Below, in pieces: positions 19,318 to 37,019 of a stretch of 64,000 nt of DNA. The DNA is from Nostoc linckia FACHB-104 (GTDB lineage: Bacteria; Cyanobacteriota; Cyanobacteriia; Cyanobacteriales; Nostocaceae). The stretch lies in assembly GCF_014696615.1 (NCBI RefSeq), contig NZ_JACJQJ010000001.1, positions 124,001-188,000 of the forward strand, written 5' to 3'. Position 1 is the stretch's first letter. Each line of letters starts with the position of its first letter. The translations under genes and the position numbers were made by a program. The notes below the pieces were generated by a model that ran no database searches, was not told the origin of the DNA, and saw nothing but the letters and a program-made list of their open reading frames with translations.

Positions 19318-19617
19318 AAAATAATAACTCTGTTATTCCTGCTATGTTAATCCGGTTGGATTAGGAAATATAGCCTGTTATGAATTTTTTATCATGTATA
19401 GGTTTCCATGATTATCTACAGTGATGATACAAAGTTTTACACTTAGGAGAATCATTTGGTCGCATTCACCATACACAACCTGCACGCAAGATGTCAAGGA
19501 TTGCGTTAATATAGACCCGTACTCCTACAGAGAAGCTACGCGTAGTCTTTTGTAGAAAAGCGGCTTGTGGTTAAGCATAAACTTTCTAGAGTTCAGCTTA
19601 ATTGCGCCCACTTACTG
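19318..19617. other. Leader region of the TPR-CHAT gene
   Basis: About 300 non-coding bases. They include a GTAGTCTTTTGTAG segment and CTACGCGTAG (a palindrome at about 19536-19545). No clear promoter or ribosome binding site was recognised, so the start of the next gene is uncertain. Confidence 0.4.
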
Positions 19618-22278
19618 ATGATGAGAAATCGGTTAATATCTTTTCTAAAGTTAGCAAAAAGTAAAAAACAGCAATCTCTTCCTTTGTCTGCTTACCTGTT
19701 GCTATTGCTATTAACTGTATTTGTGATAGTTACACCTGTCTTGAGAGCATCTTATGCAACTGATTTACCAGTTCAGCATTTATCTAAATCAAAAATAGCT
19801 GTCCAAGATTTAGAGCAACAAGGAAAAATACTCTATGAAACAGGTAGATTACTAGAAGCACAAGAAGTTTTGCTGAGAGTATTTCAACAATATCAAGTGC
19901 AAAAAGACGAACTAAGACAAGCAGTAACCCTCAGCAATCTTGCCCTAGTTTACAAACAGCGTGGGATGTTTGCTGAAGCCACCACAGCCATCAATAACAG
20001 TTTACAACTGCTAGCAACTAAAAATTCCAAACCACATTTGCAAGTTCTAGCGCAGACGCAGGAAATTCAAGGTAATGTGCAATTAGATCGAGGTCAGCCG
20101 CAACAAGCATTAGAAACCTGGCAAAAAGCTGAGGTAGTGTATACTCAACTGAGCGATCGCACAGGGATAAATCGCAGTCACATTAATCAAGCACAAGCAT
20201 TGCAGATATTAGGATTCTACCGTCGTGCTTTGACAATGTTGCTGGAGGTAGGCAAAAATTTACAATCTCAACGAGATTCTTTGACTAAAGCTATAGAATT
20301 GCGATCGCTTGGCGATGCACTCCAGTTAACTGGAGATTTAACGCAATCCCGTCAAGCCCTACAAAATAGCCTCAAAACTGCCGAGAATTTACAATCAAAA
20401 CCAGAAATTAGCGCAGCGTTGCTCAGTTTAGGCAACAATTTTAGAATTGGGGACGATTACCAAACTGCGATCGCATTTTATCAACAAGCGATCGCCACAG
20501 CGCCTTCAGCAATTACGAAGCTTCAAGGGCAAATCAATCTTGTGAGTGTGCTATTAATTACACAGCAATGGTCAACCGCCCAACCGTTGTTAACGCAAAT
20601 TAGCACAGAGTTAGATAGTCTCCCCCTCTCACAAGTAGCAGTTTATGCCAGAATTCATTTTGCGGAAAACTTAATGAAAGCTGCCAACCAGCAGCAATCT
20701 CTCAGCCCTATCAATGGCTCCTCAGCTACAGAATTGTCTGCTAAAATGCTCGCTACAGCCGTGAAACTAGCTGCAGCCCTTGGCGATCGTCGCGCAGAAT
20801 CTTATGCTATCGGTACTTTGGGCAAGCTGTATGAGCAAAACCAACAATGGTTGAATGCCCAAAAGCTGACACAGCAAGCATTAACGTTGGCTGAATCTCT
20901 GGATGCACCTGATATCGCTTACAATTGGCATTGGCAATTAGGACGTTTGCTCAAAGCGCAAGGTAATACAACTGGAGCAATTGCAGCCTATGATGCGGCT
21001 GTTAATGAATTGCAGTCTCTGAGAAGTGACTTGGTTGCAGTTAATCGAGATGTGCAATTTTCATTTAAAGAAAGTGTAGAACCTGTTTACCGCGAATTAG
21101 TGGCATTGCTTTTAGATACGCAAATACCAAAGTCTAATCAGCAAACATTAGATAAAGCTAGACAAATTATTGAGGCGTTACAGCTAGCAGAATTAGATAA
21201 TTTTTTTCGCGAAGCTTGCTTGAATACAACAAAAATTGTCCTAGATGAAGTTGTAGATCAGGATAATCCTACTGCTGCTATTATTTATCCAATTATCTTA
21301 AAAGACCAATTACAAGTAATTGTTAAAGTTCCTCAACAAGAACTGCGGCATTATGTTGTTAACCAATCTCAAATTCAAATAGAAAATGTTTCCAAACAGT
21401 TGCGAGAGTATTTAAATGAACCTGACAGAAGCGAGGAAGTTAAATCTCTATCTCAGCAATTATATAGTTGGCTGATTCAACCAATAGAGTTAGAGTTACA
21501 ACGTAGCCAGGTCAAGACTTTAGTTTTTGTACTGGATGGTGCATTACGAAATGTCCCAATGGCAGTACTTTATGACGGTCAACAGTATTTAATTGAGAAA
21601 TATGCGATTGCTTTAAACCTAGGATTACAATTACAAAAACCTAAGTTTTTAGCACAAGAAAATTTGCGAGTACTGGCAGCAGGATTAGTGCAACCGCCAT
21701 CGTCATTTCCTCAATTTCCGCCTTTACCAGAAATCAAATCTGAATTTAACTTGATTGCAAAAGCTGGAGTATCAACCACAAAACTTTTAGATCAAGATTT
21801 TACCAGTCAAGCGCTAGAAGGCAAGCTCAATTCTATTCCTTTTAACGTTGTTCACTTAGCAACTCACGGACAATTTAGTTCTCGTCCTGAAGATACCTAT
21901 GTTTTAGCTATAGATGGCCCAATTAATGTGACAGACTTTGATTTACTTTTGCGCCGTCGTGATGAATTATACCCAGAAGCCATAGAATTGCTAATTTTAA
22001 GCGCTTGTCAAACTGCAGCCGGAGACAATCGAGCTACACTCGGTTTAGCAGGCGTTGCTGTGCGTGCAGGTGCAAGGAGTACGATCGCTAGTTTGTGGAA
22101 TGTAGGCGATCGCTCAACTGCTATTTTAATTGGAGAGTTTTATCGTGAGTTGGTTGCAGCCAAAGTGACCAAAGCAGAAGCGCTGCGTCATGCTCAACTA
22201 ACTCTCCTGAAAAAGTATCCTAACTACAGCCGTCCCGCTTTTTGGGCACCCTATGTATTAGTCGGAAATTGGCTTTGA
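19618..22278 (+). CDS. Exported TPR-CHAT protein
   Basis: 886 residues if ATG 19618 is used; the frame is open from GTG 19567. A strongly hydrophobic segment (SAYLLLLLLTVFVIVTPVL) near residues 23-45 acts as signal peptide or anchor. About ten tetratricopeptide-like repeats follow to about 480, then a linker and a C-terminal CHAT (caspase HetF-associated with TPRs) domain. The catalytic pair is visible as His750 in HLATHGQF and Cys797 in LSACQTA; the domain ends with the usual FWAPYVLVGNW. CHAT domains are caspase-like proteases. With a signal segment this one should act outside the cytoplasm, possibly on the secreted FHA protein encoded 1.2 kb downstream, a pairing that I recall from other cyanobacteria. 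Confidence 0.92.
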   Translation: MMRNRLISFLKLAKSKKQQSLPLSAYLLLLLLTVFVIVTPVLRASYATDLPVQHLSKSKIAVQDLEQQGKILYETGRLLEAQEVLLRVFQQYQVQKDELRQAVTLSNLALVYKQRGMFAEATTAINNSLQLLATKNSKPHLQVLAQTQEIQGNVQLDRGQPQQALETWQKAEVVYTQLSDRTGINRSHINQAQALQILGFYRRALTMLLEVGKNLQSQRDSLTKAIELRSLGDALQLTGDLTQSRQALQNSLKTAENLQSKPEISAALLSLGNNFRIGDDYQTAIAFYQQAIATAPSAITKLQGQINLVSVLLITQQWSTAQPLLTQISTELDSLPLSQVAVYARIHFAENLMKAANQQQSLSPINGSSATELSAKMLATAVKLAAALGDRRAESYAIGTLGKLYEQNQQWLNAQKLTQQALTLAESLDAPDIAYNWHWQLGRLLKAQGNTTGAIAAYDAAVNELQSLRSDLVAVNRDVQFSFKESVEPVYRELVALLLDTQIPKSNQQTLDKARQIIEALQLAELDNFFREACLNTTKIVLDEVVDQDNPTAAIIYPIILKDQLQVIVKVPQQELRHYVVNQSQIQIENVSKQLREYLNEPDRSEEVKSLSQQLYSWLIQPIELELQRSQVKTLVFVLDGALRNVPMAVLYDGQQYLIEKYAIALNLGLQLQKPKFLAQENLRVLAAGLVQPPSSFPQFPPLPEIKSEFNLIAKAGVSTTKLLDQDFTSQALEGKLNSIPFNVVHLATHGQFSSRPEDTYVLAIDGPINVTDFDLLLRRRDELYPEAIELLILSACQTAAGDNRATLGLAGVAVRAGARSTIASLWNVGDRSTAILIGEFYRELVAAKVTKAEALRHAQLTLLKKYPNYSRPAFWAPYVLVGNWL

Positions 22279-22819
22279 GCCAATTCGCTTGGGTTAAGCT
22301 CATTAGTGATTGATTTGTCACTTAATTACAAAAGGCAGATAAATTGGGGGATTCTCCCCCAAACCCCCGATTGGGTGAAGGTTGCGTCCCCCAAACCCCC
22401 TCCAAAATTATTTGTTCGGTTTTTTTGTTGAGTAACTAGTTTTTTGGTTTTGTTATCAATTAATTGTCTTAACTAAACTGTATTGGTCTTTGAGTGCTAT
22501 CAAACAAAAAACCACAAGCAGAGTATAGAAGATAAGGTGCGCCAGCTTCGCTTCTTGCTCTATAGGCAAGTTTATTAAGAAAATTTACAACCTTTGCTGA
22601 GGTACAGGATACCCTGCATATATTTGGGTAACGCACGTAGGGATAGATGTCATCGCAATTCATCATTAGGCATTGAAGTTCCTAAAACCCTCATGCTCAA
22701 AATTCTTCAGCTTAATTCGTGGCGATCGCAGAGCATTTCCCAAAGAAAATCGCTCTCAAATTTTGGGGTGAGATTGCAGGTGATTTTGTACTGGATGCAT
22801 ATAGGGATGAGATTTAACT
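22279..22819. other. Intergenic region with G/C-run hairpin
   Basis: No convincing gene. TTGGGGGA TTC TCCCCCAA (22344-22362) forms a perfect hairpin soon after the CHAT gene and may be its terminator. More CCCCCAAACCCCC runs follow to about 22405, a sequence style common as dispersed repeats in Nostocales. The remainder probably holds the promoter of the LuxR gene. Confidence 0.55.
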
Positions 22820-23431
22820 ATGTTTACCAATATAGAGATGGAAAATAGTTACACCAGCTTTGGCTGCAATTTCAACATACTCCAGAGTATGTTGCTTGAA
22901 TTGGTGAAAGAAGGGGTAATGATAATATCTGAAAATTTACAACCCATTTATTTAAATAAAAAAGCTCAAGAAATATGTCAGCGATTATGGAATAGTAATT
23001 CTCACTCCGATAGTCTCCCTCCCATAATTTCTGATATATATCGTCAGATTATGAAAAACTTCATTAATCAAGATAGAGTATTCATTATGGATTATGATAT
23101 TTCAGAAGAGGAAACTATTCGTATTCGTGCTTGTCACATCACTCCTGAAGTTGAAGTAAAAGTTAACATTCCTGGTGAAAATCATCCTTGGCTCATCTTT
23201 TTATTAGAAGACCGCAATGCAATTTTACAAGAAGAACTGCGGATAGAGCAGAATAAATACAATCTGACAGAGCGAGAGCTAGAAGTTTTAACTTTACAAT
23301 CTCAATCATATAGTTATAAACAAATTGCCACCGCTTTAGGAGTGAGTCTTAATACCGTAAAATTTCATGTAAAAAATATTAACTTAAAAAAATATGGCTA
23401 TTTACACCAAGAAATGTTTTTACAAAATTAA
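22820..23431 (+). CDS. LuxR-family transcription regulator with PAS-like sensor
   Basis: 203 residues. The N-terminal 130 residues look like a degenerate PAS domain (MLLELVKEGVMIISENLQPIYLNKKAQEIC, a typical PAS opening). The C-terminal part, from about 148, is a LuxR/GerE helix-turn-helix: LTERELEVLTLQSQSYSYKQIATALGVSLNTVKFHVKNI. There is no receiver Asp, so it is not a canonical response regulator; a ligand or partner protein may be sensed. It lies directly upstream of the FHA-type gene on the same strand (about 90 bases apart) and is a natural candidate for its regulator. Confidence 0.9.
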   Translation: MFTNIEMENSYTSFGCNFNILQSMLLELVKEGVMIISENLQPIYLNKKAQEICQRLWNSNSHSDSLPPIISDIYRQIMKNFINQDRVFIMDYDISEEETIRIRACHITPEVEVKVNIPGENHPWLIFLLEDRNAILQEELRIEQNKYNLTERELEVLTLQSQSYSYKQIATALGVSLNTVKFHVKNINLKKYGYLHQEMFLQN

Positions 23432-23519
23432 TTATAAAAATTTTTTGGAAGACCAAAATAATAGCATTATTTTTTTTAAAAAAATCTACATAAAAGCCTT
23501 TTGCTGCTAGGAGAATACA

Positions 23520-26084
23520 ATGTCTGGAGTATCTATACATTGGAATTGGCTAAAAAAATTGGGAATTGCTATCATGAGCATCTCAATGTTTTCACCAAAT
23601 GTCTCCCTGGCTCAAATCACCCCGGATGTTACTCTGTTAAATAATTCTACTATCACAATAGAAGGCAATACCAATATTATTGAGGCTGGAACTCAAGCGG
23701 GAAATAATCTTTTTCACAGTTTTCAAGATTTTTCTGTTCCCACTAATAGCACAGCTTTTTTTAATAATCCTGCAAATATTCAAAATATAATTAGTCGGGT
23801 AACAGGTAACTCTGTTTCTAACATTGATGGATTAATTCGTGCTAACGGTACAGCTAATTTGTTTTTAATTAATCCCCGGGGAATTATTTTCGGACAGAAT
23901 GCACGCTTAGATATTGGCGGTTCATTTGTAGGTAGCACTGCTAGTAGCTTGAAATTTGCTAATGGCTTTGAATTTAGTGCCACGGCTCCCCAAACTACAC
24001 CCTTATTAACGATAAATACGCCCATAGGCTTGCAATTCGGAGACAATCCTGGAGATATTCGCGTGCAGGGAATTGGTGGTTTTTCTAGCAGCTTGCAAGG
24101 TCTGGGACTAAGAGTACCTTCAGGAAAAACTTTAGCTCTTTTAGGTGGCAATGTCATCGTAGAAGGTGCTTTTCTCAATGCTCCAGGAGGACGAATTGAA
24201 TTAGCTAGTATCGCTGGAGTTAATCAGGTCAATCTCAACCAAACAAACCAAGGCTGGATTTTTAATTATCAAAATGCTCATAACTTTGGCAATATTCAAA
24301 TTTCTAGAAGTTTTGTAGATATTGCTATTGGAGAAGACAATAAAATTCAAGGGCAAAGTGAAAAAGGTGCAATTTCCCTGAATGCCTCACAGGTAGATAT
24401 CCAAAGGTCTATTGTGACAGCAAACACTTATACCTCCGCACCTGGTGGCGATATAAATATTAATTCTAAGCAATTAACTATTCGGGAACAATCAACAGTA
24501 TCTAGTCGCACATTCAATAGTGGCACTGGAGGGAATGTCACTGTCAATGCTTCTGAATCTGTACAAATATTTAACTCTATTAGTAATAGTCTATTTCCCA
24601 GTAGCTTAAATACTGAAGTATCACAACTGGAACAAGTAGCAATTGGCAATGGTGGAAATTTAACAGTTAATACTAGGCGATTATTTTTGAATAATGGAGG
24701 AACAATATCATCAGCAACTCAAAGCATAGGAAAAGCGGGAGATATAATTATTAAAGCTACTGACGCAGTAGAAATGAGTGGAAATTTTACGAGTATAACC
24801 ACTCAAAGCAATCCTGAAACTACAGGAAATGCCGGTAATTTAAATCTGGAAACTGGAAAATTAAACCTCCAGGGCGGCGCGCAAATTAGAAGTGGTACTC
24901 TTGGTGCTGGCGCAGGGGGTAATTTAATAGTCAAGGCTTCACAAATAGAGCTAATTGGACGTTCTGATAATGGAACTAATGCTAGTGGCTTTTTTACTAG
25001 AAGTGACAGTACTGGAAAAGCTGGAGACTTGACAATTAATACTACTGGTTTGCGGGTTTTGGGTGGAGCAAACATCTCCTCTGAAACCAGAGGTTCAGGA
25101 AATGGCGGTACTTTAAAAGTAAATGCTACGGACTTTATACAAGTAACTGGTCGCGCTAATAATGGTCGTTCTAGTAGATTAACTGCTAGCACTGAAAGGT
25201 TAGGAAAAGCTGGCAACTTAACGATTTCTACACCACAATTGCTGCTTTCTGACAGCGCGCAAGCAACAGTTAGTAGTAGCCAAGCAGGTGAGGCGGGAAA
25301 CTTAGAAATCACTGCTAATTCGGTACGTCTAGATAATAGCCAGATTACTGCACAGACTAACTCCGGTAATGGCGGTAACCTAAATTTGAACATTACCGAT
25401 TTACTACTATTACGCCGTGAAAGTGAAATTTCTACTACTGCTGGCAGGGCGCAGCAACCTGGAAACGGTGGTAATATTGCCATCAATAATCCAGATGGTT
25501 TTATAGTTGCCTTCCCTGGGGAAAATAGTGATATTACAGCGAATGCTTACACTGGTAGTGGTGGGAAAGTAAATATTACAGCTTTTGGTATCTTTGGTAT
25601 TCAGCCTCGTCAAAATCCAACTTTCCTGAGCGACATCACTGCCAGTTCAGAACTAGGTATAGACGGCATCATAGAACTTAACACTCCCGATGTTGACCTG
25701 ATTCAAGGTTTAGTAGAATTACCGATAAATTTGGTTGATGCTTCCCAGCAAATCGCTCAAAGTTGTACTGCTAGAAATGTACGCAGCAATAGTTTTGTGG
25801 TTACAGGACGTGGCGGATTACCTTTGAATCCCAGGCAACCGTTACGTCAACGGGCAGTGATTAGCCAATGGGTGACATTGGGTGAACCAACAGAAACCTT
25901 CCAACAAGTACCAGCAAAGCTAACTCACTTATCTAAAAATGCTACTGAAAATCAAGAACCAATTATAGAAGCTCAAGGGTGGGTTGTGGATCGACGAGGC
26001 AATGTGCAGTTGATTGCCCAAACGCCTAACGTCAGCTTCTCTTTGCAAACTGCCCCCAACATTTCTTGCCAGCACTATGAATAA
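23520..26084 (+). CDS. Two-partner-secretion FHA-domain protein (TpsA-like)
   Basis: 854 residues with a signal peptide to about residue 31 (MFSPNVSLAQ). The filamentous haemagglutinin N-terminal domain follows: ITPDVTLLNNSTITIEGNTNIIEAGTQAGNNLFHSFQDFSVP, then NIDGLIRANGTANLFLINPRGIIFGQNARLDIGGSFVGSTA. The middle is a right-handed beta-helix of degenerate Gly/Asn repeats (GNGGNLTVNT, GKAGDLTINT). The C-terminus has the cyanobacterial SCTARN...SFVVTGRGGLPLNP block. Such proteins are exported by a TpsB (ShlB-like) outer-membrane pore and remain at the surface or are released. No tpsB gene is present in the window. ATG 23520 has AGGAG upstream (CTAGGAGAATACA). Confidence 0.92.
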   Translation: MSGVSIHWNWLKKLGIAIMSISMFSPNVSLAQITPDVTLLNNSTITIEGNTNIIEAGTQAGNNLFHSFQDFSVPTNSTAFFNNPANIQNIISRVTGNSVSNIDGLIRANGTANLFLINPRGIIFGQNARLDIGGSFVGSTASSLKFANGFEFSATAPQTTPLLTINTPIGLQFGDNPGDIRVQGIGGFSSSLQGLGLRVPSGKTLALLGGNVIVEGAFLNAPGGRIELASIAGVNQVNLNQTNQGWIFNYQNAHNFGNIQISRSFVDIAIGEDNKIQGQSEKGAISLNASQVDIQRSIVTANTYTSAPGGDININSKQLTIREQSTVSSRTFNSGTGGNVTVNASESVQIFNSISNSLFPSSLNTEVSQLEQVAIGNGGNLTVNTRRLFLNNGGTISSATQSIGKAGDIIIKATDAVEMSGNFTSITTQSNPETTGNAGNLNLETGKLNLQGGAQIRSGTLGAGAGGNLIVKASQIELIGRSDNGTNASGFFTRSDSTGKAGDLTINTTGLRVLGGANISSETRGSGNGGTLKVNATDFIQVTGRANNGRSSRLTASTERLGKAGNLTISTPQLLLSDSAQATVSSSQAGEAGNLEITANSVRLDNSQITAQTNSGNGGNLNLNITDLLLLRRESEISTTAGRAQQPGNGGNIAINNPDGFIVAFPGENSDITANAYTGSGGKVNITAFGIFGIQPRQNPTFLSDITASSELGIDGIIELNTPDVDLIQGLVELPINLVDASQQIAQSCTARNVRSNSFVVTGRGGLPLNPRQPLRQRAVISQWVTLGEPTETFQQVPAKLTHLSKNATENQEPIIEAQGWVVDRRGNVQLIAQTPNVSFSLQTAPNISCQHYE

Positions 26085-26934: not shown

Positions 26935-27006
26935 TTATGAATTACTAATGGGCATAGGGCATTGGGAAGGCGGTGCATTGCAAAGACAGTGCCGTATTAG
27001 AAGAAC

Positions 27007-28170
27007 TTAAAAGCGTAAAATTTCTCGATCGTAACCATCTGGTGTTGGTTCTACTTCCCAAACCAAAGCCTCTCCTGGCTCAAGCATGACATCGACATAA
27101 AGCTGCGCGATCGCCTGTTTAGCAGTGTCTTCGTTGTTGGCAAATGGTTGTAAATCTTCGGTTAATAGTCGCAATTTAAATCCTACCGGAATCATTTCAT
27201 CTGGATTGGTATTGCGTAATTCAAATCGCCATACATTGTCTTTTAAATTACCGCTAGACAAGACGCGCAATTCATAGGGATGACCAGCAAGCATTAAATG
27301 TCGAGACAAATATACTTGTAATTCACCAGTTTCCCGACTTCGCACACCACGGGGCGCTAATTGTAATTGTGAGATTTCCCAGCCGAACTGTTGTGCTAAA
27401 TTAGACACTCCTGCTTGTAGCCATTGCTGAATAGACCACTGTTCTGATAACCCCTGTCTTCGCTCGTATAGCCGTTGTCGCCAACCGCCATGTTCCAGCA
27501 ATGCACCCCATAATTCAAAGGGAATGGCTAAACGAGGAAACACTACTTCCGGATTCTCAAGCCGTGCTATTAGACTTTCTGCCTGAGTTAAAGGTAGCTG
27601 CGGTAGGGGTACAACTGAATTACGTAAAATTTCCTCTGGGCAAAGTTGACGCGTAATCCACAGACCATTGATATCTTTGATTAAATCATTCTCATCTAAA
27701 CAGTAGGCGCGATCGCTCGCATCATACACACCCTTGGTTTTTAATTGCCGATGGGTAATATAGCCGTAAATTGTTATCCAACCAGCATGAGGATTAACTT
27801 GGACTGCAATATAGTAATCAGCCATCCAATTGGGAATATCCACCCATTCCTGGGGTACGCGCAATTCTGCCATGTCAATTGCTGTTGTGGGAATTAATAC
27901 CAATCGCATATCGTCACAAGCGATCGCAGTACCATTGGTAAATTCCCAAAGGCTGGGTAATGCCCCTGTTTGCATCCACACTCTGGCATTGGGAACTTCT
28001 TCGGCCCGTAACCAAGGTAAAAATGTATCCAAGCATAATTGGTTAAGGTAGGCTCGCCAGCGTCCACCTGATGTCGAAAATGATGGTAATTCCTGCATTT
28101 GAGAAGTCAGGGAAATTTCCAGGGTGAGCTGTTCACAAATTGCAGGTGATGGTGGCGAAATAAAAGTCAT
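27007..28170 (-). CDS. DUF1822 family protein
   Basis: 387 residues from ATG 28168-28170, two bases after the stop of the sigma-factor gene; a longer frame begins inside that gene at 28227. The sequence has the features I associate with cyanobacterial DUF1822 proteins: WRAYLNQLCLDTFLPWL near the start, ANARVW/LWEFTNGTAI, PQEWVDIPNWMADYYIAVQVNP in the middle, and a C-terminal region with LPRGVRSR and PVGFKLRLLTEDLQPFANNED. No membrane helix. Function unknown. Genes of this family are commonly placed next to sigma-like, CHASE2 and DUF928 genes, as here, which suggests a shared signalling pathway. Tight spacing implies cotranslation with the sigma factor, for which an anti-sigma or partner role is a reasonable guess. 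Confidence 0.85.
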   Translation of the reverse strand: MTFISPPSPAICEQLTLEISLTSQMQELPSFSTSGGRWRAYLNQLCLDTFLPWLRAEEVPNARVWMQTGALPSLWEFTNGTAIACDDMRLVLIPTTAIDMAELRVPQEWVDIPNWMADYYIAVQVNPHAGWITIYGYITHRQLKTKGVYDASDRAYCLDENDLIKDINGLWITRQLCPEEILRNSVVPLPQLPLTQAESLIARLENPEVVFPRLAIPFELWGALLEHGGWRQRLYERRQGLSEQWSIQQWLQAGVSNLAQQFGWEISQLQLAPRGVRSRETGELQVYLSRHLMLAGHPYELRVLSSGNLKDNVWRFELRNTNPDEMIPVGFKLRLLTEDLQPFANNEDTAKQAIAQLYVDVMLEPGEALVWEVEPTPDGYDREILRF

Positions 28171-28172
28171 GG

Positions 28173-29381
28173 TCAGGACTCCCCAGGAGAAGACAAAACA
28201 AGATGGCGATAGTGAGCTAGCAACCATTCTTCTAAAGAATTGCTCATACTGTCGATTACGTCAGATGTCACAGGAATATGCAATGCTTGTTGACTCCATT
28301 CGGCTAAAGCTAAGAGCAAAGTCCGTTTGATTTTAGTCAACTGGCGAGAAACTGTATATTGTTTGACTCCCAGCTGTTGGGCAATCTGCTGCTGGGTCAA
28401 TCCTTGCTGGTAGTAAGTTTGCAAGAGTTTTTGGGCTGCGGTATCTAATTTTGCTATTGCCTCAGTTAAAATCTGATTGATTTCCGTACTTTGCAGTGCT
28501 ATTGTCTGTGCTTCTTCTTGGGCAATAATTTCATTTAATACCGATTGTTGAAAATTATCTGTGAAGCGATCTAGTAATTCCTCTGTTTCTTGCCCAGGTG
28601 CAGGCATATCAAGGGAAACTGAAGTGGGATATTGAAAGGCGCGTACAGCTTGAGCGCAGGTAACCAGCCAAGTTTCTAAGGTTTCGGGAGGAATGGCGGG
28701 ACTTTGAGAACTTAACTGGCTGAGACGTTCAGTATTATATAGTTGGGCGATCGCCTGTAATGTCCTTTGCTCGGGTTTAATCAGTTTGTAAGTAGTGGTA
28801 GCATCCTTGGGTGCATAAAGTTGTAGGAAACAGCTCCAAGCGAGAATATAACGGTTGATCATTTGAAAGCTATATCCCGCCTGTTGCAGAGATTCTAGTA
28901 ATCGCTTTTGGCTAACTTTGTGCAGTAATGCCCAATCACTACAGATATCCGCTTCTTGGCGCTGACGTAACAAATCTTTAATCAAATTGCTAAAAGCATA
29001 TTCAGCATAAGCTTTCAAATTTGAACCTAATTGCGGGTTAAAGCCTTTAAGTACTTTATCAATGCGAGCGATCGCAGTTTGGAAAAAGTCAGCAACCGAA
29101 TGTTGTCCTGGTACATTCATCTGCATTTTTCTCGCCACCCAATAGCAGACTTCCTGCAAATAGGCCGCAAGATGAGCAACTGCAATGGAACTCGCCTGCA
29201 TCTGCCAAACTCGATGCCAATAAATTGCCCAAAATGTTGCAGATTCCTGTTCCGAAGACTGATCTACACAATTTTGCATACTTCGCCGCAGCTTGGGATC
29301 ATTAACCCAACGGACAAAAGCATCTCCATTGAAGAGAACAAAAGTAGAAAAAATCTCAATAATATTTTGTCTTGGGTGCAT
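28173..29381 (-). CDS. Sigma-70-like factor with DUF1822 partner
   Basis: 402 residues. The C-terminal part carries a region-4-like helix-turn-helix: INQILTEAIAKLDTAAQKLLQTYYQQGLTQQQIAQQLGVKQYTVSRQLTKIKRTLL (about 310-355). The N-terminal two thirds hold helical segments (FQTAIARIDKVLKGFNPQLGSNLKAYAEYAFSNLIKDLLRQRQEADICSDWALL) that fit a divergent region 2. It is larger than a usual ECF factor. Cyanobacteria have such sigma-70-family proteins next to DUF1822 genes. The gene is divergent from the CHAT-CHASE2 operon starting at 29901, so it could direct transcription of that operon. That link is inference. Confidence 0.82.
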   Translation of the reverse strand: MHPRQNIIEIFSTFVLFNGDAFVRWVNDPKLRRSMQNCVDQSSEQESATFWAIYWHRVWQMQASSIAVAHLAAYLQEVCYWVARKMQMNVPGQHSVADFFQTAIARIDKVLKGFNPQLGSNLKAYAEYAFSNLIKDLLRQRQEADICSDWALLHKVSQKRLLESLQQAGYSFQMINRYILAWSCFLQLYAPKDATTTYKLIKPEQRTLQAIAQLYNTERLSQLSSQSPAIPPETLETWLVTCAQAVRAFQYPTSVSLDMPAPGQETEELLDRFTDNFQQSVLNEIIAQEEAQTIALQSTEINQILTEAIAKLDTAAQKLLQTYYQQGLTQQQIAQQLGVKQYTVSRQLTKIKRTLLLALAEWSQQALHIPVTSDVIDSMSNSLEEWLLAHYRHLVLSSPGES

Positions 29382-29757
29382 GAACTTTTTGGTTTTATTG
29401 AGGAAATAGCGAATAATTTCAACTACTTGCGATCGCCGTTAATTTACTTAAGTGTAGAAAATTTATGATGTGATTATAGAAGAACTTTGGCTGTCAATCT
29501 CAGCATTACTGATTCAATTGCTGAATCAGCTAATCAAGCATGGGTAATTTACCTTTGTTGACATAATTTTCCAGAAGTCAACCTATAGAGAATAATTCAG
29601 CAGCAATATGGATGAGAGCGGTGCAAACATATTCAATTGAATACTATATATAGTTAGTCTAGTGACTGCCTAAATTTTTTATACAAATGAATAAAGTCTT
29701 GCTAATTTCTTTCCGGAACAGACTATTTTGCTCAGTAGATGTGAAATAAGTACAGAA

Positions 29758-29801
29758 ATGAGTGTAAAAGAGTATTCACATGAATACTCTTTTACACTCA
29801 T
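29758..29801. promoter_or_regulatory. Perfect 44-nt palindrome (21-bp arms, 2-nt centre)
   Basis: Arms 29758-29778 and 29781-29801 are exact inverted copies around CA. It lies 100 bases before the first plus-strand gene of the CHASE2 operon. As RNA it would be a long AU-rich hairpin; as DNA it could be an operator. The following bases are not a T-run, so it is not a typical terminator for either direction. Confidence 0.7.
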
Positions 29802-29827
29802 AGTAGCTCATGAATTCCATTCACAAA

Positions 29828-29849
29828 TGCCAGCATGGCCGTGCTGGCA
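29828..29849 (+). promoter_or_regulatory. Leader hairpin TGCCAGCA...TGCTGGCA
   Basis: Perfect 8-nt G/C-rich arms with a 6-nt loop, 50 bases before ATG 29901. Together with the preceding palindrome it makes a structured 5' leader that may regulate or protect the mRNA. Confidence 0.55.
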
Positions 29850-29900
29850 AGATGAACAATTAGACCTTTCGTTAATCAAGTTTTGAAAGGAGTAACTCGG

Positions 29901-30290
29901 ATGAGTAACATATTTACCTCTGATTCCAACGTTCAGTATCTGACTGCAAAAACACTCTGGAGTCAGTTACCAACTATGAACCAATGGGCTAACAACCATC
30001 AAAACGTGCTCAATGTAGTATTCCAGAGTAGTGAAGGTAAATCCGGAAAAAATTCAGATCTCACAATACAAAGTTATACAACCCCAGCAGAAACAGCAAA
30101 TCTACCCTTACTGTTGGATAAAGCCATTGAGTTAGCCAAGGCTAATGAAGTTGCAGCGCTAATTATAGCTTGTGCCTTTTTTACCTTTGTAATTTGTGCA
30201 GCTTTGTCCAGCTTCCTTCGCAATTGCGTAGACACATTGCGGATATCTGTTGACATAGTGATTCGTTTAATGAATTACTTCCGAAAATAA
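29901..30290 (+). CDS. Small single-span membrane protein of unknown function
   Basis: 129 residues from ATG 29901, chosen because AAAGGAG lies directly upstream; the frame is open from 29883. The first 85 residues are polar (Ser/Asn/Gln-rich). A hydrophobic helix at about 89-110 (EVAALIIACAFFTFVICAALSSFL) follows, then a short amphipathic C-terminus with Arg/Lys (NCVDTLRISVDIVIRLMNYFRK). No known domain recognised. It heads the operon of STAND ATPase, AAA-like ATPase, CHAT-CHASE2 and DUF928 genes. A small membrane protein beside CHAT proteins could be an effector or cleavage target, but this is only suggested by position. Confidence 0.7.
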   Translation: MSNIFTSDSNVQYLTAKTLWSQLPTMNQWANNHQNVLNVVFQSSEGKSGKNSDLTIQSYTTPAETANLPLLLDKAIELAKANEVAALIIACAFFTFVICAALSSFLRNCVDTLRISVDIVIRLMNYFRK

Positions 30291-30458
30291 TTAAGTTGAT
30301 CTCATAACCTCAAGCATTCCAAGACAGATACATCTCATTGGTGCTTCTACCTTTCCTCTCCCTATGTCTGCAGCAGATAAATGACATTTCTACTCAAAAG
30401 GCATATATTTGTTAAATTTAATACCATATATTTTCCTATTAGTAACCAGAGATATCCT

Positions 30459-31754
30459 ATGTCTAAAATTATGGATAATAAAGATTTAGATGAGAAATTT
30501 CAACAACTCAATCGTTCGCCTAAACGCAAAGAGATATTACTTAAACTCCTCGCTGGGGAAACAGATGAGGAAATTGCTTTAGCATTAAAGATTGAAACAG
30601 GAACAGTAAGAAGGCAAATTTCTTTAATTTGTCAATTATTTGGTTTAAAAGAAGAAGAATCTTATGAGCGCCGTTCCAGACGCAGTGAGTTAATTAGCTT
30701 ATTTGCCACATATAAACCAGAACTAGTGAGAAATAAAATCTCCACAAATTTTATCCAACAACTACCTTTTAATTCTGAACAATATATCGATTTACCACAA
30801 GTTGAATCTATATGTTACAGGGAAATATTACAGCCTTCTGCATTAATCCGCATTAAAAGTCCAGGGTTAACAGGCAAAACTCATCTTTTAAAAAAGATAT
30901 TGCAATATTCTCAAACACAAGGATATTCAGCAATTAATATAAATTTTTTAGAAGCAGACCAAGAAGTTATGAGCAATATCGAAGCCCTAAACTATTGGTT
31001 CTGCAATACCGTAGGTTACGCTTTATTTGGTTCAACTAAAATGGATATTTATTGGGATAAAACTCTATCTTCTAATATGAGGTCTAGTGTTTATTTCCAG
31101 GATTATATATTAGCTAATCTCAAGACTCCTTTAGTTATTGGCTTAGATAACGTCGATCATATCTTTCCTTATGCTAGCCTCGCATTTGACTTTTTTGGAC
31201 TACTAAGAGCTTGGCACGAAAAAGGGAGAAATGGCAATCAATGGCAGAATTTACGGATCATACTTGCTTATAGTACAGATGTTTATATTCCTTTAAATAT
31301 TAATCAATCACCATTTAATGTAGGACAAATAATCGAGCTACCAGAATTTACCAAAGAACAAGTACAAGAGTTAGCAGTTAGATATGGCTTAAATTGGCAT
31401 GAAAAGCAAGTAGAAAAATTAATGGCACTTGTAGAAGGACATCCTTACTTAGTCCAAAAAGCATTGCTGCATATCAAAAATCAGCCACATATCAAAATAG
31501 AAGAAGTTTTAAATATGGCTGCAACTCCATCAGGATTATATGCCGATCATCTCTGGGAACTTTGGGTAAAACTAAAACAAGAACCACATTTGATTGCAGC
31601 GATGAAAAATCTTGTACATGCTAATCAACCAATACTCTTAAACCCAGAACAAGTACGTCAGTTAAATAGGATGGGATTAGTCCGCCTCTCAGGTAACAAT
31701 GTAGAACCTCGATGCCAATTATATCGTCTTTATTTTCGTGTTTGGTTAAATTAA
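30459..31754 (+). CDS. HTH-STAND-type ATPase (vWA-MoxR-associated HTH family)
   Basis: 431 residues from ATG 30459 (the frame is open from 30381 without a ribosome binding site). Residues 20-75 form a LuxR-like helix-turn-helix (RKEILLKLLAGETDEEIALALKIETGTVRRQISLIC) with the spacing of the HTH that precedes NB-ARC/STAND ATPases in cyanobacteria. A P-loop SPGLTGKTHLLKK follows at about 133-145, a Walker-B-like LVIGLDNVDHIF at about 226-237, and a winged-helix-like C-terminus (LNRMGLVRLSGNNVEPRCQLYRLYF). Such proteins are thought to act as NTP-controlled switches in signalling or conflict systems. The next gene begins ten bases after its stop, so the pair is cotranscribed. Confidence 0.85.
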   Translation: MSKIMDNKDLDEKFQQLNRSPKRKEILLKLLAGETDEEIALALKIETGTVRRQISLICQLFGLKEEESYERRSRRSELISLFATYKPELVRNKISTNFIQQLPFNSEQYIDLPQVESICYREILQPSALIRIKSPGLTGKTHLLKKILQYSQTQGYSAININFLEADQEVMSNIEALNYWFCNTVGYALFGSTKMDIYWDKTLSSNMRSSVYFQDYILANLKTPLVIGLDNVDHIFPYASLAFDFFGLLRAWHEKGRNGNQWQNLRIILAYSTDVYIPLNINQSPFNVGQIIELPEFTKEQVQELAVRYGLNWHEKQVEKLMALVEGHPYLVQKALLHIKNQPHIKIEEVLNMAATPSGLYADHLWELWVKLKQEPHLIAAMKNLVHANQPILLNPEQVRQLNRMGLVRLSGNNVEPRCQLYRLYFRVWLN

Positions 31755-31764
31755 TAGATAGCTC

Positions 31765-33774
31765 ATGTCAACAGAAACAACCTTACCATACAGATATCAA
31801 GTAGGAGGAAGCTTACCTCATGATGCTCCCACCTATGTTAAACGCAAAGCAGATGATCACCTGTTTAATGCACTAAAAACAGGGGAATTTTGCTATGTAT
31901 TTTCTTCTCGGCAAATGGGTAAATCTAGCCTGAGAGTACATACCATACACCGCTTACAAAAAGAAGGTATTATATGTTCTGTAATTGACCTCACAGAAAT
32001 TGGTTCTCAACTTAATTATCAGCAATGGTATAAAGGTATTGCTTACTCTTTAATGATGAACCTACAAATAAGTACGCCTATCATTCAAAAAGAATGGTGG
32101 GAGAAACACAAAGATTTATCATCTGCTTATCAATTAAGTTTATTTCTTGATGAACTACTGAAATCTACTTCTAAGAGAATTGTAATTTTTATAGATGAAA
32201 TCGATTTTGTCAAATGCCTAGATTTCCCTACAGATGAATTCTTTGGTATTATTAAGACTTGTCATAGTAAAAGGTCTTATACTCCAGAATATAAACGCCT
32301 CAGTTTTGCCTTAGTAGGTGTGACTACTCCCTCAAATTTAATTCAAGATAAAAATCATACACCTTTTAATCTTGGTAAGCCTATTGAACTATCAGGGTTT
32401 CATTTTTCGGAAGCTGAACATTTAGCAAAAGGTTTAGCTAAAAAGTTTTCTAGTTTGGAAATAGCTAAAAAAGTTCTCAAAGAAATTTTAAGGTTAACTA
32501 GTGGGCAACCTTTCTTAACACAAAAAATCTGTGACATAGTCGTTAATCTTTCCGAACCTCCTTGCCTTGGGGAAGAACAACAATGGGTTAAAAATATTGT
32601 AGTTGAAAAAATAATTGAAAATTGGGAATATCAAGATGAACCAGAACATTTAAGAACAATCAGTGAGCGCATACTGAGAAGTCAAAATGCAATTGGAGTT
32701 TTGCATCTATATCGAACAATTTTAGATAGCAAGATAGTTAAATACGATAATAGCGAAGAAGCAACAGATTTATTACTATCTGGCTTAGTTAAAAACCAAG
32801 GTAGATTGAAAATATATAATGAAATTTACGCATCTGCTTTTAATCATAAATGGATTACTAAAACATTAGAAAAGCTTGGCTGTCCTTATGCAGAAAAGCT
32901 AGAAGAATGGATACAATCTGGTCGCATTAATAATTCCCATTTATTATTGCCAGAAGAAGCTTTGTATAAAGCCTGGCAGTGGGCTGAGGGTAAGTCATTA
33001 AGCGTTGTAGATTATGAATTTCTTTGTGCCAGCTTGCTAGCTAATAATATTAGCAAAAATCATAGTAAATTTGACCAGCAAATTCTTAATAGTTTAAAGC
33101 TTAAAGAATCGCAAGATAATACAGAGAAAATAGCCTCAAACAAAGGACGAGATGTCAGAGCCAAATCATCTCAACTTTCCCCATCAAGAACAAAAGCTAT
33201 TCATGAATTCTACAAAAATAATTACCTTAAGTTATTAATGCTGGTTTTGGGAATTCCTTTTGTAATCATAATTTCTCAGATGTTATTTTTACAAAAAAAC
33301 ATTGGTAATAACTGGCTAAATTCTGGTAAACAAGAAACTATTTCCCGAGCAATTCATCATTTTTCCGGAAATAGTAGTGAATTAAAAACAGATTTATTAT
33401 TTACCATCATTCCTAATTCAACAAAATTACTAAACAGTGAAGATAGTAGTATCCCTGTTCCCACTCCTCTATTAGTTAAAAATAATCAAATAATTTCCTC
33501 GCCAAATAATCTAGTTGTTCCACTTTTAAGTAATCATCAGCAAAAGTATTTAAAATTAGAAGTAGCAATTAGATATGACGGCAGCATCAAAGTTTTACGC
33601 GCCATTGATGAAAATAATCAAATATATGATAACGAGCAAAGTTTAGAAATGCAGCTAATCAAGCAAATAGAGAATGTATTACGTTATGAATACGAGCCAG
33701 AATTTGCTAAATGGAGTTATCAGAATAAAAAAACATTATTCTATAGTTTGTCTCTAAGAATTTTAAAATATTAG
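31765..33774 (+). CDS. Membrane-anchored AAA-like (AAA_35) ATPase with extracytoplasmic tail
   Basis: 669 residues. The N-terminus is the typical cyanobacterial AAA-like/AAA_35 domain: YQVGGSLPHDAPTYVKRKADDHLFNALKTGEFCYVFSSRQMGKSSLRV, with the P-loop SRQMGKSS at about 47-54, a Walker-B-like IVIFIDEIDFV and SGQPFLTQKIC near 250. After helical repeats comes one membrane helix at about 490-510 (LLMLVLGIPFVIIISQMLFL). An outer domain of about 155 residues (SRAIHHFSGNSSELKTDLLFTIIPNS...) follows, which I do not recognise. In most relatives this N-terminal module is joined to WD40 or TPR regions; the membrane helix with a novel outer domain is unusual. It may transmit a signal across the membrane to the STAND protein encoded just upstream. 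Confidence 0.85.
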   Translation: MSTETTLPYRYQVGGSLPHDAPTYVKRKADDHLFNALKTGEFCYVFSSRQMGKSSLRVHTIHRLQKEGIICSVIDLTEIGSQLNYQQWYKGIAYSLMMNLQISTPIIQKEWWEKHKDLSSAYQLSLFLDELLKSTSKRIVIFIDEIDFVKCLDFPTDEFFGIIKTCHSKRSYTPEYKRLSFALVGVTTPSNLIQDKNHTPFNLGKPIELSGFHFSEAEHLAKGLAKKFSSLEIAKKVLKEILRLTSGQPFLTQKICDIVVNLSEPPCLGEEQQWVKNIVVEKIIENWEYQDEPEHLRTISERILRSQNAIGVLHLYRTILDSKIVKYDNSEEATDLLLSGLVKNQGRLKIYNEIYASAFNHKWITKTLEKLGCPYAEKLEEWIQSGRINNSHLLLPEEALYKAWQWAEGKSLSVVDYEFLCASLLANNISKNHSKFDQQILNSLKLKESQDNTEKIASNKGRDVRAKSSQLSPSRTKAIHEFYKNNYLKLLMLVLGIPFVIIISQMLFLQKNIGNNWLNSGKQETISRAIHHFSGNSSELKTDLLFTIIPNSTKLLNSEDSSIPVPTPLLVKNNQIISSPNNLVVPLLSNHQQKYLKLEVAIRYDGSIKVLRAIDENNQIYDNEQSLEMQLIKQIENVLRYEYEPEFAKWSYQNKKTLFYSLSLRILKY

Positions 33775-33808
33775 GTAGAATCCTATACAGGGTACTGGAG
33801 AAACTACA

Positions 33809-36223
33809 GTGGCTAAATTGGTAGTTTTGAAATTTGGTAAAGGTAGCTTTGAGGCTGGGTTTCCAGTTACCCTGCAAATTGGCCAAGAAAATAGTCGCCC
33901 TCAAAGCGAGGTGATGGGCGAATTACCACCGGATATCGAATTACCACTGAATTTTAATTGTTGGCAAGCAATATATCGCAGCCTGGATTTTTCCGCCCGC
34001 CCCATCGGGATACCCAAACCACAGTCGCCAAATGCTAGCGATCAAGAATGTTTGCAAGCAGCGCAAAACTTACGCGATCGCCTCAACTCTTGGCTGCAAT
34101 CAGCACCTTTTCGTCCTATTCGGGAGAAGTGGCTGGAGAAACTTCAGACATCTGACAAAATCCGCGTTATTCTACAGACTCAAGACTATCAACTACAAAA
34201 GCTACCTTGGCATCTTTGGGATCTGATAGAACTTTACCCCAATGCAGAAATTGCCTTAAGTGCGCCTAGCTATGAAAAAGTAAATTTTTCTCCTGTACCG
34301 ACTGCAACGGTGAAAATTTTGGCCTTGTTAGGCGATAGTCAAGGAGTCGATATCAAAACAGACCAATTGCTGCTAAAGCAACTACCTGACACAAAAATTC
34401 ACTTTCTAGTTGAACCATCTCGTGAAGACTTAACAGATAATCTCTGGCAGCAAAACTGGGATATTCTATTTTTCGCTGGACATAGTTCCAGCCACAGTAC
34501 AGGAGAAACTGGCCAGATTTACATTAACCAGACAGAGAGTTTGACAATTAGTCAGTTAAAGTATGCTTTGAAGCAAGCAGTAGAAAGAGGCTTAAAGTTA
34601 GCAATTTTTAACTCCTGCGATGGCTTAGGATTAGCGCGAGAATTTGCTTCTTTGCATATTCCCCAGTTAATTGTGATGCGGGAACCTGTACCGGATCGGG
34701 TAGCGCAGACATTTCTCAAACATTTCTTACAAGCATACGCTGGAGGTAAATCACTTTATCTCGCAGTTCGAGAAGCCAGAGAAAGGCTGCAAGGATTAGA
34801 TGGGCAATTTCCCTGCGCTAGTTGGTTACCAGTAATTTATCAAAATCCGGCTGAGAACCCGCCGAGTTGGCAGGATTTGATCAGCAAAGAGGCTGTGAAA
34901 GATGCTAAGAATTTAACTGGGGATTTTGCAGATGCAACTCCAAATCCACAGCCCAAAAAATCAGCTAAACGCTCAAAAATGCAACTTTTTTGGCTAATAT
35001 GCTCAAGTTTAGCCATTACAGGTTTAGTTGCAGGTGGGCGTTATTTGGGAATGCTGCAAGCATTTGAGTTGTATGCATTCGATCAATTGCAGCGACTTCG
35101 CCCAGAAGAAAAGCCTGATTCACGCTTATTGGTGGTGACGATTACAGAACAAGATGTGCAATTACAAGCACCGGAAAAACCACAGGGTTCTCTGTCAGAT
35201 GAATCACTGTTGAAATTGTTGAAAAAATTGGAGACATATCAACCACAAGCAATTGGTTTAGATATTTACCGCGATCGCCCCGTCAAACCAGAGTTACCAG
35301 AACTGGCGAAGCGAATGCATAAAAGCCAACTAAGTGCTGTCTGTAGAGTTAGCGATTCCCATTCCGAACATCCTGGAATCAAACCCCCACCGGAAATACC
35401 ACCAGAACGCTTGGGTTTTAGCGATTTAGTAATTGACTCAGATAATATTGTCCGTCGCCATTTACTAGCATTAACACCACCACCTTCTTCACCTTGCAAA
35501 GCATCCTATGCTTTTAGCGTGCAATTAGCACTACGTTACTTAGCGGCTGCAAATATTTCTTTAAAATTTACCAACGATGGTGCTTGGAAACTGGGTAAAG
35601 CAACTTTTAAACCTCTAACAGCACACACCAGTGGATATCAAGGTATCGATGCTGCAGGACACCAAATTTTATTGAATTATCGTTTGGGGCGATCGCTAGA
35701 AAAATTTGTCCCCCAGGTGACCCTAACAGAGATACTCACAGGCAAAGTTAACCCTAATACAGTTAAAAACCGTATTGTTATCATTGGTACAACCGCCCAA
35801 AGCTTTCAAGACTACTCATCTACACCTTTTATCACCCGTGAAGGTGCAATTGAGCAAATACCAGGTGTGATCCTGCAAGCGCAAATGATTAGTCAATTGT
35901 TAAGTGCAGCTATCGATGGGCGATCGCTTCTGTGGACTTGGTCTATTTGGCAAGAAATTATTTGGATTTGGGGGTGGTCGTTAGCAGGTATTTTACTATC
36001 TTGGTACAGTCAACGGCTGCTTTATTTAACCATTGCGGCAGGAGTAGCAATTATCAGCCTCTACGGGATATGTCTAGTAATTTTAATTCAGTGGAGTGGT
36101 TGGATACCGCTGATTCCTCCTAGTATTGTCCTGGTTAGTAGCATCGTAATTGCTTACTACATTAGAAATTTTCCTCGCTCCACGGAAAATACACCTGTTT
36201 TTGTGATTACTAACAATAGATAG
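33809..36223 (+). CDS. CHAT-CHASE2 membrane receptor
   Basis: 804 residues from GTG 33809, which has GGAG upstream. The N-terminal half is a CHAT domain with its likely catalytic pair His225 (FFAGHSSSH) and Cys270 (FNSCDG), and the closing GQFPCASWLPVIYQNP. A membrane helix (about 392-412) leads to a CHASE2 extracellular sensor: LFWLICSSLAITGLVAGGRYLG, ALDQLQRLRPEEKPDSRLLVVTITEQDVQ, and VNPNTVKNRIVIIGTTAQSFQD. Two or three further helices close the protein (about 700-790). CHASE2 normally precedes kinases or cyclases, where it senses unknown external signals. Here the cytoplasmic output is a caspase-like protease, a combination that I recall from cyanobacteria and that seems functionally unstudied. 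Confidence 0.92.
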   Translation: MAKLVVLKFGKGSFEAGFPVTLQIGQENSRPQSEVMGELPPDIELPLNFNCWQAIYRSLDFSARPIGIPKPQSPNASDQECLQAAQNLRDRLNSWLQSAPFRPIREKWLEKLQTSDKIRVILQTQDYQLQKLPWHLWDLIELYPNAEIALSAPSYEKVNFSPVPTATVKILALLGDSQGVDIKTDQLLLKQLPDTKIHFLVEPSREDLTDNLWQQNWDILFFAGHSSSHSTGETGQIYINQTESLTISQLKYALKQAVERGLKLAIFNSCDGLGLAREFASLHIPQLIVMREPVPDRVAQTFLKHFLQAYAGGKSLYLAVREARERLQGLDGQFPCASWLPVIYQNPAENPPSWQDLISKEAVKDAKNLTGDFADATPNPQPKKSAKRSKMQLFWLICSSLAITGLVAGGRYLGMLQAFELYAFDQLQRLRPEEKPDSRLLVVTITEQDVQLQAPEKPQGSLSDESLLKLLKKLETYQPQAIGLDIYRDRPVKPELPELAKRMHKSQLSAVCRVSDSHSEHPGIKPPPEIPPERLGFSDLVIDSDNIVRRHLLALTPPPSSPCKASYAFSVQLALRYLAAANISLKFTNDGAWKLGKATFKPLTAHTSGYQGIDAAGHQILLNYRLGRSLEKFVPQVTLTEILTGKVNPNTVKNRIVIIGTTAQSFQDYSSTPFITREGAIEQIPGVILQAQMISQLLSAAIDGRSLLWTWSIWQEIIWIWGWSLAGILLSWYSQRLLYLTIAAGVAIISLYGICLVILIQWSGWIPLIPPSIVLVSSIVIAYYIRNFPRSTENTPVFVITNNR

Positions 36224-36251
36224 GACTAAAAATTTGTTAGGAGTAGGACAG

Positions 36252-37019
36252 ATGAGACTATTTCTTTTGCGACTAGTTTCAATGGCTGCACTCACAGTTA
36301 CAGTCATTAATAGTTCGCCAGCACTAGGGGAAAAATCAGCAGCAATTAATTTCAATCCACCACCGCCACCACCACCGGATCGTGGCGCACCAGGAAATCG
36401 AGGAGAAGGTGCTTCCCGAGGAGGTTGTACAGCGCTAGGTTTGCCTTTAACCGCTTTTGTACCTAACTATCAACAAAGCCTCAGCCAAAACCAAACCCCT
36501 ACAATTACCCAAGTTTGGGGCTTAACGAGTGTAGAAAAACCCAGCTTTTGGTTCTACGTTCCTTACTATCAATCTTCCCTGCGCGCAATCGAGTTTGTTT
36601 TGCAAACCGATCAAAATAAAACCATCTATCGCACAAATATTTCCCTACCCTCAGTACCAGGAATTGTGCGAGTAAAACTGCAAAATACTCCGGCTATCTT
36701 AGAAAACAACAAGTCATATCACTGGTTTTTTAAAGTAAAAGTAGCTTGCAATCATCAAGAATTCGCAAAATTAGAGTATGTAGAAGGCTGGGTACAGCGG
36801 GTGAAATTAGATGTCGCATTACGCGATCGCCTTAAACAATCTTCCCCACAACAACAAGTAGCAATCTATGCTGAAAAGGGCCTGTGGTACGATGCCTTAA
36901 CAAGGCTAGCGGAACTTCGCTTGGCAAATCCTCAAAATGCAGAACTGGCTGAAGACTGGAAAAGTTTACTCAAAGCAATTGAGCTAGAAAACTTAGCTAC
37001 ACAACCCTTTGTATATTGA
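36252..37019 (+). CDS. DUF928 family exported protein
   Basis: 255 residues from ATG 36252 (TAGGAGTAGGACAG upstream; the frame is open from a TTG at 36234). Signal peptide MRLFLLRLVSMAALTVTVINSSPALG, a run of prolines (NPPPPPPPDRGAPGNRGEGASRGGC), then the DUF928 core: LTAFVPNYQQSLSQNQTPTITQVWGLTSVEKPSFWFYVPYYQSSLRAIEFVLQTDQNKTIYRTNISLP. A C-terminal helical region (AEKGLWYDALTRLAELRLANPQNAELAEDWKSLL) contains a TPR-like repeat. Function unknown; the family is regularly encoded beside CHASE2 genes, so it may supply the periplasmic partner of the CHASE2 sensor. The stop of the CHASE2 gene is 28 bases upstream. Confidence 0.88.
   Translation: MRLFLLRLVSMAALTVTVINSSPALGEKSAAINFNPPPPPPPDRGAPGNRGEGASRGGCTALGLPLTAFVPNYQQSLSQNQTPTITQVWGLTSVEKPSFWFYVPYYQSSLRAIEFVLQTDQNKTIYRTNISLPSVPGIVRVKLQNTPAILENNKSYHWFFKVKVACNHQEFAKLEYVEGWVQRVKLDVALRDRLKQSSPQQQVAIYAEKGLWYDALTRLAELRLANPQNAELAEDWKSLLKAIELENLATQPFVY

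Follow-up and report, generated by a model that had tools for sequence, protein, structure and literature searches.

We analyzed a stretch of 64,000 nucleotides of Nostoc linckia FACHB-104 (contig NZ_JACJQJ010000001.1, positions 124,001 to 188,000), referred to here as the window, in which seven adjacent genes occupy positions 27007..37019. The list of open reading frames (ORFs), Pfam and NCBIfam confirmed the seven ORFs and the domains that a preliminary description had named for them. Two genes lie on the minus strand. The first (28173..29381) encodes a long sigma factor similar to the extracytoplasmic function (ECF) type, with 402 amino acids (P0002; NCBIfam TIGR02937, sigma70-ECF, E 9.1e-38), and the second (27007..28170) a DUF1822 protein (Pfam E 2e-118), whose likely start, an ATG at 28170, is located 2 bases past the sigma stop codon. 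The plus strand carries the genes for a small protein predicted to have one membrane helix (29901..30290), a nucleoside triphosphatase (NTPase) with a helix-turn-helix (HTH) part (HTH-AAA_35, 30459..31754, Pfam AAA_35 E 1.1e-124), a second NTPase with one membrane helix predicted from hydropathy (AAA_35-TM, 31765..33774, AAA_35 E 5.1e-28), a CHAT-CHASE2 protein (P0006, 33809..36223, CHASE2 E 3.2e-66 and CHAT E 5.4e-16) and a DUF928 protein (36252..37019, E 4e-59), which is probably exported, as it has an N-terminal hydrophobic stretch. The likely start of the small membrane protein at 29901 is preceded by a conserved AAAGGAG, and that of DUF928 at 36252 coincides with the beginning of the frame in genome G005. 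For HTH-AAA_35 a start at about 30459 was used, near which the matches of G002 and G007 begin; G003 and G005 match from a longer start. The small protein (135 amino acids as first called) belongs to no Pfam family at E ≤ 0.1. The label STAND, which the preliminary description had used, was discarded, as Pfam assigns AAA_35 to both NTPases.

The seven genes very probably represent two modules that are inherited separately, namely module A, consisting of the sigma-DUF1822 pair and the CHAT-CHASE2-DUF928 pair, and module B, consisting of the small membrane protein, HTH-AAA_35 and AAA_35-TM. The linkage within module A was counted for 53 CHAT-CHASE2 genes from 28 genomes, the window included, each being a listed match that covered nearly the whole query in one piece. 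Partial matches (among them G007:C1:1529372, G023:C30 and G027:C60), cases in which CHAT and CHASE2 were listed as separate pieces, and the second CHAT-CHASE2 gene of L070 were left out. Since the set comprises the window and close copies, its members are not independent, and flanks of 8 kb on both sides were available for 31 of them. DUF1822 was found within 8 kb of the CHAT-CHASE2 gene in 50/53 cases, in 43 of them directly upstream on the same strand. This number is an undercount, because the search profile missed at least one DUF1822 gene (G031, L094), which was recovered by Pfam. DUF928 was present within 8 kb in 49/53 cases and directly downstream in 47, and a sigma gene adjoined DUF1822 within the fetched stretch at 25 of the 53 loci. 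The latter count may also be too low, because two of six short ORFs (216-252 amino acids) located upstream of DUF1822 where the sigma profile was silent matched sigma models, both below cut-off; the other four had no match at 1e-5, and a seventh such ORF (L063) encodes a response regulator. Twenty 20-kb control regions, chosen manually at round coordinates of six genomes, contained no DUF1822, DUF928, sigma, exoprotein or CHAT-CHASE2 gene (0/20), but three CHAT-TPR genes, one HTH-AAA_35 gene and one CHASE2 gene without CHAT. The proposed co-occurrence of sigma-DUF1822 with CHAT-CHASE2-DUF928 across many cyanobacterial genomes was supported, with a linkage far above that in the control regions.

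The same picture emerged from a scan of named bacterial genomes, which returned 12 loci. DUF928 followed CHAT-CHASE2 in all 12, and DUF1822-sigma was divergent from it in 11, L046 being without DUF1822-sigma. Matches to the CHAT-CHASE2 protein were present in 37 of 39 genomes, including that of the window, which alone contains 25 (pieces included). The window genome also harbors nine DUF1822 genes; a gene encoding the same N-terminal CHAT module lies within 6 kb of eight of them, and a sigma gene adjoins five. Within the phylum, DUF1822 was matched in 38/59 genomes (36 above cut-off), many of these matches being weak and partial, compared to 0/14 control genomes. In phylum genomes coded f25 (roughly 1.8-2.2 Mb), weak partial DUF1822 matches lie inside proteins of mostly about 850-1300 amino acids. 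Genes that neighbor module A frequently but not constantly are those for a CHAT-TPR protein (within 8 kb at 29/53 loci), a two-partner-secretion exoprotein (17/53) and a LuxR-type HTH protein; in the window they were assigned by Pfam to the region 19567..26084 on the plus strand. The LuxR-type HTH gene (22820-23431) and a nucleotidyltransferase-like ORF (26014-26934) are located upstream of DUF1822.

Module B is distributed very differently. The small membrane protein occurs in only 5 of 39 genomes (that of the window included), all of one genus, and each time ahead of HTH-AAA_35 and AAA_35-TM. Near the 53 CHAT-CHASE2 genes, the small membrane protein gene was absent in 50 cases and HTH-AAA_35 in 48, and the complete module was present in three; the cassette was also absent from 11 of the 12 scan loci. 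All seven genes together were found only in the window genome and in its close relatives G003 and G005. In the sister genomes G002 and G007, module B is present at the same site with the same neighbors, without sigma, DUF1822, CHAT-CHASE2 and DUF928. In the stretches compared, homology between the window and G002 spans 29589 to 33781, and 19163-29589 and 33782-37102 are unmatched. This pattern could have arisen if module A was gained on both sides of module B, or if G002 and G007 lost the two flanks. G001 and G004 have the downstream neighbor gene with neither module beside it, and G006 is uninformative on both modules, since its contig begins 209 bases before that gene.

The position of module B is associated with a changed intergenic region. 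In ten relatives, sigma and CHAT-CHASE2 are separated by 96-675 bp forming one shared intergenic region, and in the window module B sits at this place. A BLASTN comparison of these ten regions with the window showed that the latter retains at most about 50 bp at the sigma gene, where a piece is still recognizable at 29382..29428, and about 13 bp upstream of CHAT. A block between sigma and CHAT occurs once each in six of eleven relatives (L047-L052) and is absent from the other five, from the window and from four further loci; its absence from the window says little, because the other five relatives and the four further loci lack it as well. The five plus-strand genes are closely spaced. As the CHAT-CHASE2 gene begins only about 35 bp behind AAA_35-TM, it is probably read from the promoter of module B. 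CHAT-CHASE2-DUF928 would then probably be co-transcribed with module B and answer to two inputs, and the sensor genes may have come under the transcriptional control of the NTPase pair.

The leader of module B (29700..29900, plus strand), located ahead of the small membrane protein gene, is strongly conserved in an alignment of the five cassette genomes. It contains a perfect 44-base palindrome (29758-29801), a GC-rich 8-bp hairpin (29828-29849) and the ribosome-binding site. The 30-base core of the palindrome (≤ 3 mismatches) has a single occurrence in each of the five cassette genomes and none in the three other genomes of the genus that were searched. The palindrome score was 21 in the window, 22 in G003 and G005, 18 in G002 and 11 in G007, the last value being due to an overlap between called start and palindrome. 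Among 97 background upstream regions the highest score was 13, and upstream of other HTH-AAA_35 genes it was also 13 (L136). In the arms, two of 20 pairs are changed on both sides and two pairs have one unpaired cell each. Of 500 shuffles, 67 reached the pair count and six the covariation score. The predicted fold of the leader has -64.2 kcal/mol (z -5.13). A known RNA family was rejected, as no Rfam model matched at its gathering score and the 11 weak matches, mostly to microRNA or small-RNA models, were far below their cut-offs. The leader might be either a DNA operator for HTH-AAA_35 or an RNA element, two options that five close sequences cannot separate.

The two NTPases differ in a catalytic motif. 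HTH-AAA_35 has the Walker A motif GLTGKT and a Walker B motif, LDNVD, with Asn at the position of the usual catalytic Glu, and AAA_35-TM retains an intact FIDEID. This difference suggests that one partner may bind NTP without hydrolyzing it. Among 29 distinct HTH-AAA_35 sequences (near and cut copies included), the Walker B position is occupied by N in 11, E in four, G in four, D in two and S in one, and was not found in seven. The HTH part showed a weak match to sigma region 4 and LuxR-like models below cut-off, and the about 160 amino acids of AAA_35-TM beyond the membrane helix (33292-33771) could not be assigned convincingly to any Pfam family (best E 0.0065, below cut-off).

According to Pfam and hydropathy, the CHAT-CHASE2 protein consists of an N-terminal constant domain, CHAT and CHASE2, the latter with membrane helices on either side. 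The His225/Cys270 pair predicted for CHAT is located exactly at these residues and is invariant in 13/13 aligned sequences, the window included. In 66 distinct CHAT-CHASE2 frames (cut copies included), the His motif was present in all and the strict Cys motif in 63; in two of the remaining three the Cys lies in a slightly altered motif, and the printed stretch of the third ends earlier. No named Pfam domain matched the constant domain. The N-terminal part, roughly residues 2-357, has matches in frames ranging from about 400 to 1650 amino acids, and in five proteins of the window genome that were scanned the same module is joined to nSTAND1-WD40, CHASE2 and ANF_receptor C-termini. In L081 (11741-14035), a protein matched by the CHAT-module profile carries an ANF_receptor-like ligand-binding region and stands in line behind sigma and DUF1822, thus with a different sensor. 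Searches of the Protein Data Bank (PDB) with the CHAT module (best match 8tl0, E 0.063) and with HTH-AAA_35 returned nothing firm.

With respect to the sigma factor, Pfam placed sigma-70 region 4 above and region 2 just under the cut-off, and a profile built from ten relatives matched solved sigma factors. The match to CAS_III-E_sigma (E 1.6e-9) was far below the cut-off of that model. The length of DUF1822 splits with the presence of sigma: all 35 DUF1822 proteins with sigma have at least 344 amino acids and all 24 without sigma are shorter, the cut of 344 having been read off the data. This comparison comprised 59 of 64 rows, as L046, L060, L094 and L095 (no DUF1822 by profile) and L087 (truncated gene) were dropped. 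The split looks as if the extra part of the long DUF1822 docked the sigma factor.

Taken together, we propose that the locus is a composite in which module A acts as a transmembrane protease-sigma relay and module B as a separately inherited second switch, so that CHAT-CHASE2-DUF928 probably answers to two inputs; we assign this model a probability of roughly 45%. CHASE2 outside the membrane, probably together with the exported DUF928 protein, would sense a signal, and this signal would switch on the cytoplasmic CHAT protease. CHAT would then cut or remodel DUF1822, a candidate CHAT substrate or partner that would otherwise hold the co-encoded ECF-like sigma factor. The freed sigma factor could transcribe its targets, perhaps the neighboring secreted-protein genes. 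Module B, by its position between sigma and CHAT, would give CHAT-CHASE2-DUF928 the second input. The relay is our best guess because of the Csx29-Csx30-CASP-sigma precedent discussed below, and we favor it because sigma and DUF1822 are closely spaced, DUF1822 is constantly near CHAT, and its length splits with sigma.

Several observations weigh against this model. The split between DUF1822 length and sigma corresponds to four to five changes on the tree and to two independent pairs on well-supported branches or four on all branches, which is too few for a test. Two of the nine DUF1822 proteins of the window genome (L080, L082) are long although no sigma was detected, and the sigma-DUF1822 pair of L076 has no CHAT gene within the 20 kb fetched. 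DUF1822 is more constant than sigma: since 28 of the 53 loci have no profile-detected sigma beside it, an anti-sigma function alone does not account for DUF1822 at all loci. A sequence search of solved chains gave no credible match for DUF1822, although the presence of the Csx30 chain among them was not checked. Concerning module B, its co-transcription with CHAT-CHASE2-DUF928 is suggested by spacing; no promoter motif was detected (a consensus scan found five where 5.0 were expected) and no terminator. Finally, diverged HTH-AAA_35 and AAA_35 genes occur within 8 kb of CHAT-CHASE2 in L064, as does an HTH-AAA_35 gene in L061, and in L050 and L052 an AAA_35 gene follows DUF928 at a distance of about 1.2 kb, so that AAA_35 and module A may be linked more than "unrelated" would imply, if loosely.

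The strongest rival, which we nevertheless regard as unlikely, follows Kaur et al. (2021; PMC8195603), who published such neighborhoods, with ECF sigma, DUF1822 and C-termini of the CHASE2 type, under the name EACC2-caspase systems. The constant domain and the caspase-fold protease would self-activate upon a stimulus and lead to cell death or immunity, sigma being the transcriptional arm. The varied C-termini joined to the same N-terminal module in the window genome fit this idea. Pfam recognized no toxic effector among the seven proteins, however, and up to 26 CHAT-CHASE2 matches per genome (CHASE2-only matches included, with capped scoring) together with the secreted-protein neighbors look more like sensory signaling. 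For the seven proteins PADLOC returned weak matches only, those over the HTH parts reaching E 1.3e-4 at best and one over CHAT, to BovA, having E 0.036; none of them was convincing. Of the two roles suggested in the preliminary description, signaling is likely and defense or programmed death conceivable. A role of module A in development or envelope regulation similar to that of HetF, the membrane CHAT protein of Anabaena (PMC8406250), is quite improbable; in this case CHAT would act on cellular substrates of its own, and sigma and DUF1822 would answer to another signal. The CHAT domain does show weak similarity to HetF (NF045509, E 7.6e-10, 37.7 bits versus a cut-off of 1200), but the tight linkage of DUF1822 and its length split with sigma speak against such independence. 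A single dedicated seven-gene system, as initially described, is very improbable: the fact that all genes are adjacent in G003, G005 and the window, the tight spacing of the plus-strand genes and the diverged AAA_35 genes near module A in L061, L064, L050 and L052 would agree with it, but module A loci without module B, and module B without module A in G002 and G007, speak against it.

AAA_35 proteins also occur with the CHASE2 sensor itself. Among the matches listed, at least nine loci (L116, L126, L156-L162) encode CHASE2 fused to AAA_35 in place of CHAT, the Pfam check of the fusion covering L126; in two further candidates (L163, L164) no CHASE2 was found. These loci document that such fusions exist, not how frequent they are. 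Again among the matches listed, HTH-AAA_35 is located upstream in 9/9 (within 200 bp in four and at 5-7.2 kb in five), DUF928 is nearby in seven, and an exoprotein and CHAT-TPR are nearby in five; L162 has no DUF928, and the stretch of L116 ends inside CHAT-TPR. HTH-AAA_35 beside an AAA_35 gene recurs elsewhere in the window genome with other C-termini. In L118 (4275-9338), a protein with AAA_35, helicase and EcoEI R C-terminal domains is encoded directly behind HTH-AAA_35, and AAA_35 pairs may thus also serve restriction-like systems. It is conceivable, if doubtful, that CHASE2 and DUF928 form a receptor pair whose outputs can be exchanged, either CHAT with DUF1822-sigma or AAA_35 with HTH-AAA_35, often beside the same secreted-protein genes. 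In the window, a single transcription unit would then combine the protease arm with a cassette related to the second arm, namely HTH-AAA_35 preceded by the palindromic leader, at the place where relatives have the shared sigma/CHAT intergenic region. That the same sensor can carry AAA_35 instead of CHAT offers a second, independent handle. DUF1822 and CHAT-CHASE2 proteins are numerous in filamentous cyanobacteria.

Several known systems resemble parts of the locus. The preliminary description had considered it undescribed, but a neighborhood of this kind was sketched by Kaur et al. (2021; PMC8195603). These authors report EACC2-caspase proteins whose C-termini vary, CHASE2 being one of them, in neighborhoods with ECF sigma and DUF1822, and propose a stimulus-driven autoproteolysis and a transcriptional step. 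The constant N-terminal module with the protease, the variable C-termini and the adjacent ECF sigma and DUF1822 are all found here. The terms DUF928 and AAA_35, by contrast, do not occur in the main text of that paper, and its EACC2-caspase section names no HTH-AAA_35 pair, divergent arrangement or exchange of the protease for AAA_35 on CHASE2. The locus is partly known and has a new arrangement; the CHASE2-AAA_35 fusions behind HTH-AAA_35 and the conserved 44-base palindrome in the leader of module B are new. The CHASE2-DUF928-WD40 cluster of Nostoc punctiforme (PMC5587647) likewise combines a CHASE2 sensor gene with a DUF928 gene and was proposed to sense outside signals, and an acid-stress response of a DUF928 protein is cited there. 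This cluster has WD40 partners, and neither a sigma factor nor DUF1822 nor a protease step is mentioned in the relevant part of that paper. In the open-licence PMC literature searched, as far as its text was covered, we found no experiment on DUF1822, which is a weak negative, and work on DUF928 is similarly sparse. HetF of Anabaena (PMC8406250) is also a membrane-bound CHAT protein of a filamentous cyanobacterium, but carries TPR instead of CHASE2, and its similarity is confined to the CHAT core.

The closest mechanistic parallel is the Craspase pathway of type III-E CRISPR, in which, as described in PMC10028731, Csx29 (TPR-CHAT) cuts Csx30, the inhibitor of CASP-sigma. That pathway is RNA-guided, whereas the locus described here has a CHASE2 membrane sensor; no CRISPR part was found among the seven genes by Pfam, NCBIfam and PADLOC, and no Cas7-11-type RNA-guided effector among them or ten other window ORFs scanned. 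In both, a CHAT protease, with His and Cys intact here, is encoded at one locus with an ECF-like sigma factor; the part of the inhibitor protein would here fall to DUF1822 as a candidate, for which no relation to Csx30 emerged, a direct comparison of the two not having been made. If CHAT indeed cuts DUF1822 to free sigma, the protease-sigma relay of one CRISPR subtype would represent a common scheme of membrane signaling.

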